From contig JACCET010000005.1 of the NCBI GenBank assembly GCA_013416405.1, forward strand, positions 1-64,000: 64,000 nucleotides of DNA, given 5' to 3'. Positions 41,738 to 48,752 of this stretch are shown piece after piece (the stretch's first letter is position 1; every line of letters starts with the position of its first letter). The stretch comes from Alcaligenaceae bacterium (GTDB lineage: Bacteria > Pseudomonadota > Gammaproteobacteria > Burkholderiales > Burkholderiaceae_B). Below the pieces are notes generated by a model that made no database searches, was not told where the DNA came from, and worked only from the letters and a program-made list of their open reading frames with translations. The position numbers were made by a program, and so were the translations under genes.

Positions 41738-42921
41738 TTACCTAATCCGTCCTTACGGAACATTTCTTTGATGCCACGCACCGCCTGACGGGTACGTTGC
41801 TCGTTTTCAATCAGTGCAAAGCGCACATAGCCATCACCATACTCACCAAAACCTATGCCGGGCGATACCGCTACCTTGGCGTCGGCCAGCAGGCGTTTGG
41901 AAAACTCCAGCGAGCCCTGCTCTTCATAGAACTCGGGAATTTTCGCCCAGATATACATGGACGCCTTAGGTATGTCGACCATCCAGCCGGCTTCATGCAA
42001 GCCTTTGGCCAGTACATCGCGACGGTTACGGTATTGCTCGACAACCTGGGACACTTCATCTTGTGGCCCCTCGAGGGCGGCAATGGATGCCACCTGTATG
42101 GGTGTGAACATGCCGTAATCGTGGTAGCTTTTGATGCGCGCCAGGGCGTTGACCAATTCCTGATTACCGACCATGAAGCCTACGCGCCAGCCAGCCATGT
42201 TGTAGCTTTTGCTCATGGTGAAGAATTCAACCGCCACATCGCGCGCGCCCTCGACCTGCATGATGGAAGGCGCCTTATAGCCGTCGAACGTGATGTCGGC
42301 ATAGGCCAGGTCGTGCACCACCAGGATATTGTGCTCTTTGGCCAGGGCAACGACGCGCTCGAAGAACGCCAGATCGACACACTGCGCGGTGGGATTGCTG
42401 GGGAAACCCAGTATCATCATCTTGGGCTTGGGTATGCTTTCACGCACTGCCCTTTCGATTTCATCGAAAAAGTCCAGCCCCGGCGTCATGGGCACCGAAC
42501 GGATATTGGCACCCGCAATGACAGCGCCATATATATGGATGGGGTAGCTGGGATTGGGCACCAGCACGGTGTCGCCACGATCCAGCGTGGCAAGCATCAG
42601 GTGGGCCAGGCCCTCTTTGGAGCCTATGGTAACGATGGCTTCGGAATCGGGATCGATTTGCACGCCATAGCGCCGGTCGTACCAGCCCGAAATGGCCTTG
42701 CGTAGACGCGGTATGCCCTTGGACACCGAATAGCCGTGCGTATCAGGCCGGGTGGCGGCCTCGACGAGTTTGTCTACAATGTGCTTGGGCGTGGGCCCAT
42801 CGGGGTTGCCCATAGACATGTCGATAATATCTTCGCCTCGCCGGCGCGCCGCCATTTTCAATTCACCGGTGATGTTGAATACGTAGGGCGGCAGACGTTC
42901 TATACGGGGGAAATTCGTCAT
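41734..42921 (-). CDS. alaC: alanine transaminase AlaC (PLP class I aminotransferase)
   Basis: This 395-residue class I aminotransferase resembles AlaC, which moves amino groups between glutamate and pyruvate. The PLP lysine lies in [13 protein letters not shown] (about 230-242), and the N-terminus [15 protein letters not shown] is typical. I chose the ATG at 42921; the frame is open another 73 codons upstream, but that part has no homologous look. Placement before hom and thrC is common in betaproteobacteria. A role in supplying amino groups to this pathway is possible. Confidence 0.93.
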
Positions 42922-44063: not shown

Positions 44064-45746
44064 ATGCCGCTACCAAAGTTGCCGACCCGCATGGGCGCCA
44101 TGGTTTCCGCCCCTACCTCTGCCGCGATGCCTGAAGCCCCTGAAATCAAAACACCGGCAACTCTTTCCGGCTCGCCGCACGGCAAGCCCTCCGGCGTGCA
44201 TCCTGGCAAGTCTTCGAGCGAGCCTTCCGCCAAACGCCAGGCGCCCGCCCAGGCCCGTCCCAAGGCCATTGCTCCCATCGTCCCCGAACCGCCGGCCCTG
44301 GCGGTGGTTGCCGTCAGAAACGAAAAAAAGAAACGTCTGCCTGTCACCCAGCGCAAGCTGTTCGTGCTGGATACCAATGTATTGCTGCACGACTCCAATT
44401 CCTTGTTCAAGTTCGAAGAACATGATATTTTCCTGCCCATGATGGTGCTCGAGGAACTCGACCACCAGAAAAAAGGCATGTCGGAAGTCGCCCGCAACGC
44501 ACGTCAGGTCAGCCGCTTTCTGGATGGTCTGGTCAGCGACACAAACAAGCTGGACAAAGGCGTGGCGCTGGACGCCCTGGGCAACCAGGAAGCCTTGGGC
44601 AATCTGCATTTTCAAACGTCCGCCCTGCATTCGCAATTGCCTATCGAGCTGCCACTGGGCAAGGCCGATAACGCCATCCTGAATGTGGTGCATGCGCTGC
44701 AGCTGGCCCATCCCAAGCGCGAAGTCGTTCTGGTGTCTAAAGACATCAATATGCGACTCAAGGCCCTTTCGCTCAGCCTGCCCGCCGAAGATTACCTGAA
44801 CGACCACGTTCTGGACGACTCCGACCTACTGTACGACGGCGTCATGCCGCTACCGGAAAATTTCTGGGCCAAGCATGGTAAAGACGTCGAATCGTGGCAG
44901 CAGGGCGGCACCACCTATTACCGCATTACCGGCCCTTTATGCTCTGAGTTCATCGTCAACGAATTCGTTTATTTCGATGGTGACCTCCCCCTGCAGGCCC
45001 AGGTCAAGGAAGTCAATGGGCGTAGTGCGGTGCTGGCCACCCTGCGCGATTACAGCCATGGCAAGAACAACGTGTGGGGCATTACCGCCCGCAATCGCGA
45101 ACAGAACTTCGCCCTGAATCTGCTCATGAATCCCGACTGCGACTTCGTCTCGCTGCTGGGTCAGGCAGGTACGGGCAAAACGCTGCTGGCCCTGGCTAGC
45201 GCCCTGACCCAAACCCTGGAAACCAAGCGGTATAACGAAATCATCATCACCCGGGCAACCGTCCCGGTGGGTGACGACATCGGTTTCCTGCCAGGTACGG
45301 AAGAAGAAAAAATGTTGCCCTGGATGGGCGCGCTCGAGGACAACCTGGAAGTCCTGCACCTTGGAGCCGGCAATAATGAAATGGGCGGCACCGGTGGCCA
45401 GGACTGGTCCAAGAATTCGACCATGGAACTGATACGCTCACGCATCAAGGTCAAGTCGCTGAACTTCATGCGCGGGCGAACCTTTCTGAACAAGTTCTTG
45501 ATCATAGACGAGGCCCAGAACCTGACGCCCAAGCAGATGAAGACCTTGGTCACCCGGGCCGGCCCGGGTACGAAAATCGTGTGTCTGGGCAATATCGCCC
45601 AGATCGATACCCCCTACCTGACCGAGGGCAGTTCGGGGCTGACCTATGTCGTAGACAGGTTCAAGGGCTGGCCGCATTCTGGCCATATCACCTTGCAAAG
45701 GGGCGAGCGCTCAAGACTGGCAGACTACGCCAGCGAAGCGCTTTAG
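44064..45746 (+). CDS. PhoH family ATPase with N-terminal PIN domain
   Basis: The 560-residue protein has a disordered Pro/Ala/Lys-rich N-terminus (1-95), a PIN nuclease-like domain (about 98-230, first Asp103 in VLDTNVLL) and a PhoH ATPase/helicase domain (about 320-560). The latter carries the Walker A GQAGTGKT (about 366-373) and Walker B LIIDEAQNL. The PIN-PhoH fusion (PhoH2-like) is an RNA helicase/RNase type in other bacteria. GGAG lies 10 bp before the ATG at 44064. It is unrelated to phoU despite the name. pdxA follows by 20 bp. Confidence 0.93.
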   Translation: MPLPKLPTRMGAMVSAPTSAAMPEAPEIKTPATLSGSPHGKPSGVHPGKSSSEPSAKRQAPAQARPKAIAPIVPEPPALAVVAVRNEKKKRLPVTQRKLFVLDTNVLLHDSNSLFKFEEHDIFLPMMVLEELDHQKKGMSEVARNARQVSRFLDGLVSDTNKLDKGVALDALGNQEALGNLHFQTSALHSQLPIELPLGKADNAILNVVHALQLAHPKREVVLVSKDINMRLKALSLSLPAEDYLNDHVLDDSDLLYDGVMPLPENFWAKHGKDVESWQQGGTTYYRITGPLCSEFIVNEFVYFDGDLPLQAQVKEVNGRSAVLATLRDYSHGKNNVWGITARNREQNFALNLLMNPDCDFVSLLGQAGTGKTLLALASALTQTLETKRYNEIIITRATVPVGDDIGFLPGTEEEKMLPWMGALEDNLEVLHLGAGNNEMGGTGGQDWSKNSTMELIRSRIKVKSLNFMRGRTFLNKFLIIDEAQNLTPKQMKTLVTRAGPGTKIVCLGNIAQIDTPYLTEGSSGLTYVVDRFKGWPHSGHITLQRGERSRLADYASEAL

Positions 45747-45766
45747 CGTCCAGTCTGGTGAATTCC

Positions 45767-46756
45767 ATGAACGCTTGCACAAGCCTGCCCATAGGTTTCA
45801 CGATGGGCGATGCGGCCGGCATCGGCCCGGAAATCATCGTCAAGCTCTTTGCCCAGGGCTTACCCAAGGCCGCCCTGGTCTATGGCGATGCCGGCATCCT
45901 GGACGACACCATAAGGCAGTTGGGCCTGACCAATGCTTTGCGAGTCGAACTCATCAGCGAACCAGAACTGGCACTGGGCCAGGCAGGCCTTATACCGGTG
46001 CTTAATCGCTGGCGCGAACTGCCTGCCGACCTGCCTGCGGGCCAGCTCAGCGCGCTGGCGGGGCGGGGCGCGTACGAATACCTGTGTCACGCCATCGACG
46101 ATGCCATGGCAGGAAAATTGCGGGCCATCGTCACGGCGCCACTGAACAAAAAAGCCATGCAAGCAGGCGGCGCCGACTATCCCGGCCATACCGAGATCCT
46201 GGCTGAACGCAGTGCAACCCAGCACTACGCAATGATGCTGGCCAATCAGGAATTGCGTGTCATTCTGGCCACTATACATGTGCCTATCAGCCAGGTCAGC
46301 ACCCTGCTTACTCAGGAGCTTGAACTCAACACCATACAGCTTGCGCATCGTGCCTGTCTTCAGGCCGGCATAGCAAAGCCGCGTGTGGCCGTGGCGGGCC
46401 TTAATCCGCATGCCGGAGAAGACGGGCGGTTCGGCCAGGAAGAAATTCTGCTGATAGAACCGGCCATACGCCAGGCTCAAGCACTGGGCATAGAGGCCAG
46501 CGGCCCCTGGCCTGGCGACACGGTCTTTATGCGCGCGCGCCAGGGCGAGTTCGATATCGTGGTGGCCCAATATCACGACCAGGGCTTGATCCCGGTGAAA
46601 TATCTGGGTATAGACCAAGGCGTGAATGTCACCGTCGGTTTACCCTTTATACGCACCAGTGTCGATCACGGCACGGCATTCGATATTGCCGGACAAGGCG
46701 TTGCCGACCCGGCCTCTTTGCGCGCCGCCTACGACTTGGCGCTGACCATGAGCTGA
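45767..46756 (+). CDS. pdxA: 4-hydroxythreonine-4-phosphate dehydrogenase
   Basis: PdxA oxidises 4-phosphohydroxy-L-threonine in pyridoxal phosphate synthesis. The 329 residues have GDAAGIGPEI (about 15-24) and the metal-binding segments AGLNPHAGEDG (about 208-218) and AQYHDQGLIPVKY. The ATG at 45767, 20 bp after the phoH stop, gives the normal N-terminus; an open frame reaching back into phoH is not used. It converges on dnaB across a 506-bp gap that holds repeats. Confidence 0.95.
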   Translation: MNACTSLPIGFTMGDAAGIGPEIIVKLFAQGLPKAALVYGDAGILDDTIRQLGLTNALRVELISEPELALGQAGLIPVLNRWRELPADLPAGQLSALAGRGAYEYLCHAIDDAMAGKLRAIVTAPLNKKAMQAGGADYPGHTEILAERSATQHYAMMLANQELRVILATIHVPISQVSTLLTQELELNTIQLAHRACLQAGIAKPRVAVAGLNPHAGEDGRFGQEEILLIEPAIRQAQALGIEASGPWPGDTVFMRARQGEFDIVVAQYHDQGLIPVKYLGIDQGVNVTVGLPFIRTSVDHGTAFDIAGQGVADPASLRAAYDLALTMS

Positions 46757-46922
46757 ATGACGTCACGCTTTTCCATAGACCCGTTTCTGCTCAAGCTGCT
46801 TGCCGGCCCAATGTAGGTGTGCCCTCGTGAAAGTGGAGCACTGAAGTTTCGATGCCAGCACCAATACCGCCTGCATGCACGTGGCAGGTATGCCCCCAGC
46901 CTCCCAATATGTCGGTACATGA

Positions 46923-47154
46923 CAAGCCGTGCGTATCAGGGGCTGTGCAGGCGCCTTGCGCACGCCGGTTAATTCGGGTCGACCGGAGAGGCAAGGCCAC
47001 AGTTGTTTGACCGCGACGGTTGTGGACAATCCGGGGGATTGTCCACCGCGGGAGTTCTGTGGCCTCTCCGGGCGGCACGAATTAACCGGGAAGCCTTGAC
47101 GCAGCCAAGGCCGTAGCGCGTGAAGCCGGAACAGCACCTGATACACACGGCTTG
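46923..47154. repeat. 232-bp imperfect palindromic element between pdxA and dnaB
   Basis: The outermost arms CAAGCCGTGCGTATCAGG (46923-46940) and CCTGATACACACGGCTTG (47137-47154) match at 17 of 18 bases. Further arms nest inside: CCGGTTAATTCG (46965-46976) with its complement at 47078-47089; CCGGAGAGG plus CCACAG (46983-47002, with a 5-base insert) with 47057-47071; and GTGGACAATCC (47022-47032) with 47036-47046 around a 3-base loop. No target-site duplication or T-run is visible. It fills much of the gap and has no convincing gene. A non-autonomous mobile element or large extragenic palindrome is likeliest. Confidence 0.7.
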
Positions 47155-47157
47155 CTT

Positions 47158-47217
47158 AAGCACTGATTCCAGGGAGGCCGAGCACTGAATAGGCCAAGCA
47201 CTGATTCCAGGGAGGCC
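47158..47217. repeat. 22-bp direct repeat, 38-bp period, beside the palindrome
   Basis: A 22-base word beginning AAGCACTGATTCC and ending AGGGAGGCC occurs at 47158-47179 and identically at 47196-47217. A shorter echo, GCACTGAATAGGCC, lies between (47182-47195). The pair starts 4 bp right of the palindromic element and about 45 bp beyond the dnaB stop, so it may be part of the same element. Confidence 0.7.
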
Positions 47218-47262
47218 TACAACTAAAGGCTCAGCACTAAATATCGGAAAACCGCCGATACC

Positions 47263-48651
47263 CTAATGCCCCAAGCCGCCCGTATAGTTCAGAAACCGCG
47301 TGCTGGATCCCTGGAACGTCAGGCGCACACTACCTATCGGCCCGTTACGCTGCTTACCGACGATAATTTCCGCCGTCCCCTTATCGGGCGAATCCGGGTT
47401 GTAAACCTCATCCCGATAAATGAACAAAATCAAGTCAGCATCTTGCTCGATAGCACCCGACTCGCGCAGGTCACTCATGACGGGCCGCTTGTTCGGACGC
47501 TGTTCCAGGCTTCGATTCAGCTGCGACAAGGCAATCAAGGGGCAATTCAGTTCTTTGGCCAGCCCTTTGAGTGAGCGGCTGATTTCAGAAATTTCAGTCG
47601 CACGGTTCTCGCCCGAAGAATTGGCGGACATCAACTGCATATAGTCTATGATGATCAGGCCCAGTTGGCCGCATTGACGCGCCAACCGACGCGAACGCGC
47701 CCGTACTTCCATCGACGACAGAGCCGGAGTTTCATCGATATAGATCTGAGCCTCTTGTACCTGCTGCACTGCATGGGTCAGCCGTGGCCAGTCGTCGGTT
47801 GTGAGCTTGCCCGTGCGCATACGATGCTGGTCCAGCATGCCCACGGAACCCACCATGCGCATGGCCAACTGCACGGCACCCATTTCCATGGAAAATACAG
47901 CTACAGGCAAACCCTGCTCGATGGCAACGTGCTCACCTATATTCATGGAGAATGACGTCTTGCCCATGGACGGGCGGCCGGCAACAATGACCAGGTCGCC
48001 GGCCTGCAAGCCCGAGGTCATGCGGTCCAGATCGGTAAAGCCGGTAGGCACGCCGGTAACATCGGAGTCGCCTTCGCGGTGATACAGCTCATCAATACGC
48101 TCAACGACTTGCGTCAGCAAGGGTTGGATGTCTTGAAAGCCTGTGGCCCCGCGCGCACCTTCCTGGGAAATCTGGAATACGCGGGACTCGGCCTCGTCCA
48201 GCAGCTGACGTGCTTCTTTGCCCTGCGGATTGAAGGCGGCAGCGGCGATTTCGTCGGCAACCGACACCAGCTTACGCAGCATGGAACGCTCGCGCACGAT
48301 TTCGGCATACCGACGAATGTTGGCGGCCGACGGCGTATTATGAGCTAGCGCATTCAGGTAGGCTAGGCCACCCACGTCGTCAGATTTACCGGCGCTGGCC
48401 AAAGACTCGTGCACCGTAACCACGTCAGCAGGTCGGGCCAGGCTTATCAGCCGGGTAATGTGCTGCCAGATGATCTTATGATCAAAGCGATAAAAATCGT
48501 CTTCATTCAATACGTCGGTAACCCGATCAAATGCCGCGTTGTCCAGCAGCAAGCCACCCAGCACCGACTGCTCGGCTTCGACCGAGTGCGGTGGCACGCG
48601 CAGATAATCCAGTTGCGGGTCGCTTTGTGTCTTCTTGCTGCTCAAATCCAT
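47263..48651 (-). CDS. dnaB: replicative DNA helicase DnaB
   Basis: DnaB is the hexameric 5'-3' helicase at the replication fork. The 462 residues have an N-terminal DnaB domain (about 18-120) and a RecA-like domain with the Walker A GRPSMGKTS (about 225-233) and Walker B LIIIDYMQLM. I chose the ATG at 48651, preceded by CCGGAG; the open frame 30 codons longer runs across the terminator hairpin and is not used. It lies after the rplI terminator on the same strand, so it likely has its own promoter there. No intein is seen. Confidence 0.96.
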   Translation of the reverse strand: MDLSSKKTQSDPQLDYLRVPPHSVEAEQSVLGGLLLDNAAFDRVTDVLNEDDFYRFDHKIIWQHITRLISLARPADVVTVHESLASAGKSDDVGGLAYLNALAHNTPSAANIRRYAEIVRERSMLRKLVSVADEIAAAAFNPQGKEARQLLDEAESRVFQISQEGARGATGFQDIQPLLTQVVERIDELYHREGDSDVTGVPTGFTDLDRMTSGLQAGDLVIVAGRPSMGKTSFSMNIGEHVAIEQGLPVAVFSMEMGAVQLAMRMVGSVGMLDQHRMRTGKLTTDDWPRLTHAVQQVQEAQIYIDETPALSSMEVRARSRRLARQCGQLGLIIIDYMQLMSANSSGENRATEISEISRSLKGLAKELNCPLIALSQLNRSLEQRPNKRPVMSDLRESGAIEQDADLILFIYRDEVYNPDSPDKGTAEIIVGKQRNGPIGSVRLTFQGSSTRFLNYTGGLGH

Positions 48652-48669
48652 GCTCCGGACAAGATGGGT

Positions 48670-48700
48670 AAAAAAAAAGCCGGCATACACCGGCTTTTTT
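48670..48700 (-). terminator. rho-independent terminator after rplI
   Basis: GCCGG (48679-48683) pairs with CCGGC (48690-48694) around a 6-base loop, flanked by A and T runs that extend the stem. On the minus strand the stem is followed by nine T residues. It ends the rpsF-priB-rpsR-rplI transcript just before dnaB. Confidence 0.85.
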
Positions 48701-48752
48701 GCTGTGCGATGTACTTTCCCGCTAAGGAATGTACCACGCAAGGCAGGCGGTA

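Follow-up and report, generated by a model that had tools for sequence, protein, structure and literature searches.

A 232-base palindrome between pdxA and dnaB belongs to a family of dispersed, covarying structured elements that favour convergent gene ends

Between pdxA and dnaB of an Alcaligenaceae bacterium lies a nested palindrome of 232 bases (46923-47154), which raises the question whether such a structure is a chance palindrome, a transcription terminator, a dispersed mobile sequence or a large structured RNA. It is contained in the 64,000-nt stretch of DNA that we analysed, referred to as the window. The preliminary description of this DNA had reported terminal arms agreeing at 17 of 18 bases, further arms nested around a three-base centre near 47034 and inserts mainly in the right half, and the geometry was borne out on re-examination. 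The outer arms 46923-46940 and 47137-47154 match at 17/18 positions and lengthen to 39 nt with 79% complementarity, the inner arm pair 46965-46992/47062-47089 is 89% complementary, the apex is a 3-base loop at 47033-47035, and the extra bases, which lie mainly in the right arm, form a side hairpin (47093-47111). The neighbouring genes had also been named correctly: Pfam identifies pdxA (PF04166), converging from the left, and dnaB (PF03796 and PF00772), converging from the right.

As had been proposed, both strands were folded as RNA, giving -142.5 kcal/mol (z -10.2) for the + strand and -139.9 kcal/mol (z -11.3) for the - strand, with none of 200 shuffles equal in either case. The element exceeds the 232 bases, as an outer helix (46899-46905/47172-47178) and a degenerate tandem repeat (47158-47227) are added to it. 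We excluded an intrinsic terminator, in agreement with the earlier judgement, since a scan of 46700-47320 returned no intrinsic-terminator-like site and the element has no short GC-rich hairpin tailed by a T-run. The same scan gave no sigma-70-like site. A coding role was rejected as well: two of the three overlapping open reading frames had no Pfam match at E<=0.1 and the third scored 16.9 bits, below the 27-bit cut-off. An RNA family known to Rfam was ruled out because its covariance models gave no match at E<=1 for window positions 46600-47400, and six element loci had no Rfam match at gathering score.

A plain DNA search of the host genome (3.66 Mb, 59 contigs) already returns several copies. 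We aligned 31 oriented copies from the host genome, its genus and a few other family members (alignment A1) and built the covariance model R1 from them. Searching the host genome with R1 yielded 39 matches at E<=0.01, comprising 26 copies and 13 opposite-strand echoes. Scoring covered 150 of the 1910 candidates, which makes 26 a minimum, so that at least 25 further copies lie outside the window; the 26 occupy 20 sites, six of which are pairs. Within the window R1 returned the element, its opposite-strand echo and otherwise one 12.6-bit match (E 0.045), consistent with the earlier remark that no further copy is present there. An 18-base near match to the outer arm, with 2 mismatches, lies at 42730-42747; no R1 match or partner arm was reported for it.

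RNAalifold predicted 81 pairs on A1. The resulting family anatomy runs from an outer stem through conserved internal loops to a core stem, and from there to an inner stem, which contains a G.A-rich loop, and an apical hairpin; a side hairpin in the 3' arm creates a three-way junction and gives the element a direction. The parts of the window copy are as follows.

46921-47162, + strand: whole structured element (model R1, 236.6 bits; + is the better-folding strand)
46923-46946, + strand: 5' arm of outer stem P1, paired with 47131-47154; two-sided changes in 18/24 pairs
47131-47154, + strand: 3' arm of outer stem P1, partner of 46923-46946
46947-46964, + strand: conserved internal-loop segment, 5' side; invariant or near-invariant columns of A1
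47112-47130, + strand: conserved internal-loop segment, 3' side; invariant or near-invariant columns of A1
46965-46988, + strand: 5' arm of core stem P3, paired with 47066-47089; two-sided changes in 18/24 pairs
47066-47089, + strand: 3' arm of core stem P3, partner of 46965-46988
46995-47002, + strand: 5' arm of stem P4, paired with 47057-47064; two-sided changes in 7/8 pairs
47057-47064, + strand: 3' arm of stem P4, partner of 46995-47002
47004-47011, + strand: 5' strand of the G.A-rich internal loop; family consensus CTGTYYGAG, window copy ending in GAC; loop also in distant relatives
47051-47056, + strand: 3' strand of the G.A-rich internal loop; family consensus CGAGTT, window copy GGAGTT
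47024-47044, + strand: apical hairpin with 3-nt loop 47033-47035, from the RNA fold
47093-47111, + strand: side hairpin of the three-way junction, setting the element direction; two-sided changes in 6/6 pairs
46899-46905, + strand: 5' arm of outermost helix P0, from the fold of a longer stretch; pairing in other copies was judged by eye and is uncounted
47172-47178, + strand: 3' arm of outermost helix P0, from the fold of a longer stretch
47158-47227, + strand: short degenerate tandem repeat next to the element's 3' end; arrays also lie beside many other copies
46757-47262, no strand: pdxA-dnaB intergenic stretch, 506 bp
45671-46756, + strand: pdxA (PF04166), converging from the left; start putative
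47263-48741, - strand: dnaB (PF03796, PF00772), converging from the right, with its stop turned towards the element's 3' end

In the A1 consensus structure 97.0% of the cells are paired and 59 of the 81 pairs show two-sided compensatory change, values not reached in any of 500 shuffles. Since kinship alone can lift sequences above shuffles without any structure, a better control is to slide the partners by 1-3 columns, upon which only 36.6-41.5% remained paired. Thus, the fold is kept among the copies although the sequence changes, as expected for the large structured element that had been suspected; the outer stems differ strongly from copy to copy. Together, fold z-scores and covariation rule out a chance palindrome. 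The element measures about 240 nt, or about 300 nt with flanks, and is chromosomal, intergenic and apparently non-coding. Some copies are partly deleted, and the stretches L018:535-600 and L009:1430-1571 look like scars in which the outer flanks of an element are present without its core. A single copy per genome, relatives without the arms and a lack of covariation had been named as observations that would speak against a mobile or structured element, and none of the three was made. We are almost certain that the palindrome is a full-length member of a family of dispersed structured elements.

The copies also allow the favoured strand to be determined. The test comprised 25 host-genome copies (the 26 without a deleted one) and 67 copies from named loci. 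The latter derive from an R1 search of 80 named loci, which gave 124 matches and, after subtraction of 15 echoes, 109 copies; 68 of these were used and one with unknown bases was removed. The sense of the window's + strand was the more stable in 22/25 host-genome and 62/67 named copies, 84/92 altogether. The named set is not fully independent of A1, because some of the loci that it includes from the congener G003 had entered that alignment too. The advantage of the + strand averages 10-12 kcal/mol, and with DNA folding parameters it was favoured in 25/25 host-genome and 64/67 named copies. The base pairs point in the same direction. Pairs predicted from a single strand favour that strand (G.T to A.C 45:2 for pairs predicted from + only and 1:99, read on +, for those predicted from - only), so that the 76 pairs predicted from both strands are the fair set, and among these G.T outnumbers A.C by 49 to 14. 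Selection probably acts on the folded strand.

Covariation could, in principle, also result from template-switch repair between the arms (quasi-palindrome correction), in which case the fold would be functionless. Such a process would suit the long, nearly perfect arms and an inverted core at one site, described below, that suggests recombination between arms. Yet the side hairpin, the asymmetric bulges and the G.A-rich loop persist uncorrected and one strand is favoured, and we consider this origin of the covariation very improbable.

As the preliminary description had suggested, we then searched relatives. R1 matched in 79 of 268 family genomes and 27 of 43 genera, with scoring limited to 8 candidates in each genome; when plain DNA served as the query, with fewer candidates scored, 22 of the 268 were positive. 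Among 80 of 86 exact-pattern stretches the hosts include Pusillimonas, Pollutimonas, Parapusillimonas, Paralcaligenes, Pigmentiphaga, Eoetvoesiella and Alcaligenes faecalis. At the level of the order 25/399 genomes match, 22 of them beyond the family, many with a single weak match. With a second model, R2, built from a broader sequence set, 11/398 genomes match at the level of the phylum, several of them multicopy. In 20 stretches picked from order-level loci the loop shows no variation in the letters TGT-TGAG and CGAGTT, and the three-way junction is seen in many folds of distant loci. Outside the host genome, the loop motif was present at the match in 16/17 phylum-search loci (gaps from 3), the background being 12 chance or other hits per 84,000 control bases. 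At L180, L319 and similar distant loci a relative of the core precedes a second hairpin whose arms resemble GGTTACTTTCTTT, an arrangement unseen in the window family. Hairpins of the GGTTACTTTCTTTG type beside distant relatives are common in related genomes and were observed here only at loci such as L180 and L319.

The elements are placed non-randomly with respect to genes. Neighbours were called for 89 of the 109 named copies, 62 of which have a gene end on their near side. For the comparison of gaps we used 88 of these 89 and excluded gaps of 1500 bp or more; 27/46 gaps with an element are convergent as compared to 40/291 without (p 2e-10), and divergent gaps are rarer with an element (3/46 versus 58/291). 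Convergent placement alone is not special, as a survey of bacterial genomes reports that stable stem-loops in general favour convergent gaps (PMC1590033). Where two copies are neighbours within 1.6 kb, their arrangement is head to head in 6/6 host-genome and 27/29 named cases, 33/35 overall; one of the two exceptions, L214, is also the inverted-core site. With the genes of the host genome predicted from a simple codon model, 23/26 copies there have their 3' end directed at a stop codon, 22 of them within 150 bp. A rule that the 3' end always faces the stop of the preceding gene was nevertheless rejected: in tandem gene contexts at the named loci orientation is unbiased (near end to stop 10, to start 13), and crude gene calls around distant relatives likewise gave 17 versus 17 among 38.

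On the folded strand, the flank between element and stop codon is A-rich (A-T 0.226, n=20, versus 0.016 in 22 controls, p 2e-6), whereas a Rho-loading function of this flank is weakly supported because C is only slightly above G. Some pairs enclose genes of an ordinary or accessory kind, namely two GNAT acetyltransferases and a nitroreductase in the host genome and, elsewhere, a gene for a YhcG-type nuclease and one for a small TraY/RHH-like protein. The head-to-head pair around two GNAT genes on contig C56 of the host genome (L269:644-2125) lies in a stretch with a G+C content of 0.54; the two genes were missed by the window-trained codon model.

The overall explanation that we consider best, though with slightly less than even confidence, is a structured intergenic repeat family acting at convergent transcript ends. 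More specifically, we tentatively propose that the element is a barrier or processing site there. In a head-to-head pair, read-through from each gene would, shortly before the opposing gene, run into the far copy on its better-folding strand; the hairpin and its A-rich flank may then form an RNA barrier, or a processing site, by which convergent transcripts are ended or trimmed. This is our best guess because paired read-through would encounter first the folded far copy and then the A-rich flank before reaching the opposing gene. A comparable role has been proposed for REP/BIME and ERIC hairpins. While the status as a family is firm, we infer the function and the route of spread.

To trace the history of the sites we compared them with congeners. 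An empty site, which the preliminary description had suggested looking for, is found twice: the pdxA-dnaB gap lacks the element in the congeners G003 and G002 and measures 33 and 29 bp there (counted by eye) versus 506 bp here, and in a third congener dnaB has a different downstream neighbour. At 11 of the 20 host sites at least one flank matches a congener locus in which a whole or partial element is present. In 12 site comparisons the identity of the element is 0.70-0.93 and that of the left flank at 30-80 bp is 0.38-0.62, the flank values of sites A and M being too low because they were compared in the orientation of an element that is, or may be, inverted; at three sites the 30 bases adjoining the element are 0.80-0.90 identical.

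Stem and core were then followed separately at seven shared sites. For the outer stem the ortholog is the best or tied-best match at 5/7 (A, B, D, E and H), and for the core at 2/7 (D and E), while the best core match is another host-genome copy at 4/7 (A, B, H and M) and, at site F, G003 copies of other sites. Hence, the two histories are clearly separate at 3/7 sites (A, B and H), where the outer stem follows the site and the core follows the genome. The core is inverted at site A, since the genes on both sides match in reverse and the element in direct orientation; the same may hold for site M, judged from one flank. Strain CGII-64 carries eight units that align over a common stretch and diverge beyond it. 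Seven of them have the two-hairpin form (98-115 bp apart), and the alignment of the eighth, L188, starts partway into the left hairpin. These patterns fit rare spread of whole units together with some exchange of cores by recombination, and our model accordingly would have copies spreading rarely and some swapping cores. The argument from conservation is thereby weakened, as core exchange can keep copies alike without local selection. In Parapusillimonas granuli the spacers between the paired hairpins of L186:6284-6596 and L232:4002-4328 are near-identical, which suggests a recent duplication of a whole unit.

Cores that resemble other copies of the same genome, as at the four of seven sites above, would also be expected of an independent structured ncRNA that is encoded at multiple loci, evolves partly in concert and binds a protein or RNA in trans through its core. 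Conserved internal loops and a three-way junction with strong covariation, as well as a G.A-rich loop that is invariant in the 20 picked distant stretches and present at the match in 16/17 phylum loci, argue in the same direction. However, no promoter was found in 46700-47320, the outer stems vary among copies, Rfam has no match, and the copies lie head to head between genes, unlike separate transcription units, making an ncRNA of this kind rather improbable.

The second reading suggested by the site histories is selfish, non-autonomous mobile DNA of the BIME, REPIN or MITE type, in which the head-to-head pair is the mobile unit, a transposase recognises the single-stranded hairpin and convergent gaps are where insertion does least harm. 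It would account for the eight similar units of one strain (seven in two-hairpin form, 98-115 bp apart), for the gap that is element-free in two of three congeners and has another neighbour gene in the third, for partly deleted copies, for the preference for one folded strand, for the scarcity of copies in divergent gaps and for the pair flanking two GNAT genes. Against it stands that 11/20 sites are common to congeners and that no target-site duplication could be established: none is readable by eye, and the flanks carry arrays and have diverged. Therefore only part of the earlier suggestion of a MITE-like or otherwise dispersed element stood. The element is dispersed (at least 26 copies and a site that is element-free in two congeners), and it has terminal inverted repeats; for a MITE in the strict sense, no target-site duplication was readable and no parent transposase was found among the two enzyme families searched.

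Candidate partner enzymes, for which Y1_Tnp and RVT_1 were the sole families searched, do not track the elements either. Y1 transposases occur in 17/79 element-positive and 47/189 element-negative family genomes (p 0.64); among individual genomes, the host genome (G000) and G003 have a Y1 gene and G001 and G002 have none. Unfiltered R1 hits near the Y1 gene of the host (best 27.9 bits) coincide with palindromes of about 50 nt beside it. A RAYT/Y1 parent was rejected in view of the gene's own, unrelated palindromes and its distribution across the family. This sole Y1/RAYT-like gene (L276; contig C33:395489-395812 plus flanks) is bordered by near-perfect palindromes that contain GGGGTCAGACAC and form a separate repeat family. 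A reverse transcriptase is present in 10 and absent from 5 of 15 element-bearing genomes, these 15 being drawn from the 22 positive by plain DNA query; SINE-like retroposition, considered in view of the A-rich 3' flank, was dropped because no reverse transcriptase is constant. Neither an exact-pattern search of IMG/VR nor a blastn search of 72,556 plasmid and 50,697 phage records with copy L005 returned an element, which further argues against mobile DNA. All in all, selfish mobile DNA is possible though doubtful; it comes close behind the barrier or processing site, and both can be true.

Which known repeats come closest? ERIC/IRU (RU-1), YPAL and Correia/NEMIS are, according to two reports, intergenic repeats of about 100-200 bp whose transcripts are long stem-loops, and ERIC and NEMIS are proposed there to act on neighbouring mRNA (PMC2229807, PMC2267715). 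The window family shares with them dispersed intergenic copies that each form one long stem-loop. By description and by Rfam it differs from them in its length of about 240 nt, its three-way junction, conserved internal loops and variable outer stems, and its head-to-head pairs. REP and BIME sequences are non-coding and near gene ends (PMC1590033, PMC3733652), BIMEs being paired in alternating orientation (PMC2817692) and REPs being 20-40 bp long with GTAG or CGTC tags (PMC3733652). Compared with REP, BIME and REPIN, the window family is likewise non-coding, near gene ends and paired in alternating orientation, but at about 240 nt it is several times longer than a 20-40 bp palindrome, and RAYT (Y1) genes do not track it across the family.

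Bordetella belongs to the same family as the window host. Its Bor-2 repeat is described as a stem-loop intergenic repeat of 167 bp with 17 sequences (PMC2267715), and the first-described Bor repeats as having a REP-like core of 26-30 bp (PMC1590033). The window family resembles Bor-1 and Bor-2 in being a stem-loop intergenic repeat, Bor-2 having been compared by description alone, and differs from the first-described repeats, with their REP-like core of 26-30 bp, in measuring about 240 nt. A literature search by host, by kind and by sequence strings returned no description of the window family; many subscription papers lay outside its coverage, so one may exist. The window family is best read as a new, large variant among palindromic intergenic repeats of the ERIC/BIME kind; it differs from ERIC, NEMIS, BIME and Bor in size, junction, internal loops, pairing and some split stem and core histories.

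A more far-reaching view, which we regard as unlikely but worth stating, is that these elements, which would share one near-invariant G.A-rich loop and a hairpin at the junction, are an old, unrecognised class found in many Gammaproteobacteria (as defined by GTDB) where convergent genes end, with cores that can be replaced or inverted within site-specific outer stems, so that many of the cores in one genome evolve together. If this were true, a trans-acting partner would read the core everywhere while the outer stem marks its own site, and the elements would constitute a genome-wide system for separating convergent transcripts. Since natural deletions and swaps already exist, and the copies are many, paired, shared with or missing from sister species and partly swapped, direct testing is possible. 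With dozens of copies in each genome, covariation and no entry in Rfam, this large element deserves a name, and it bears on how bacteria separate convergent transcripts and how palindromic repeats can disperse when no transposase is apparent.
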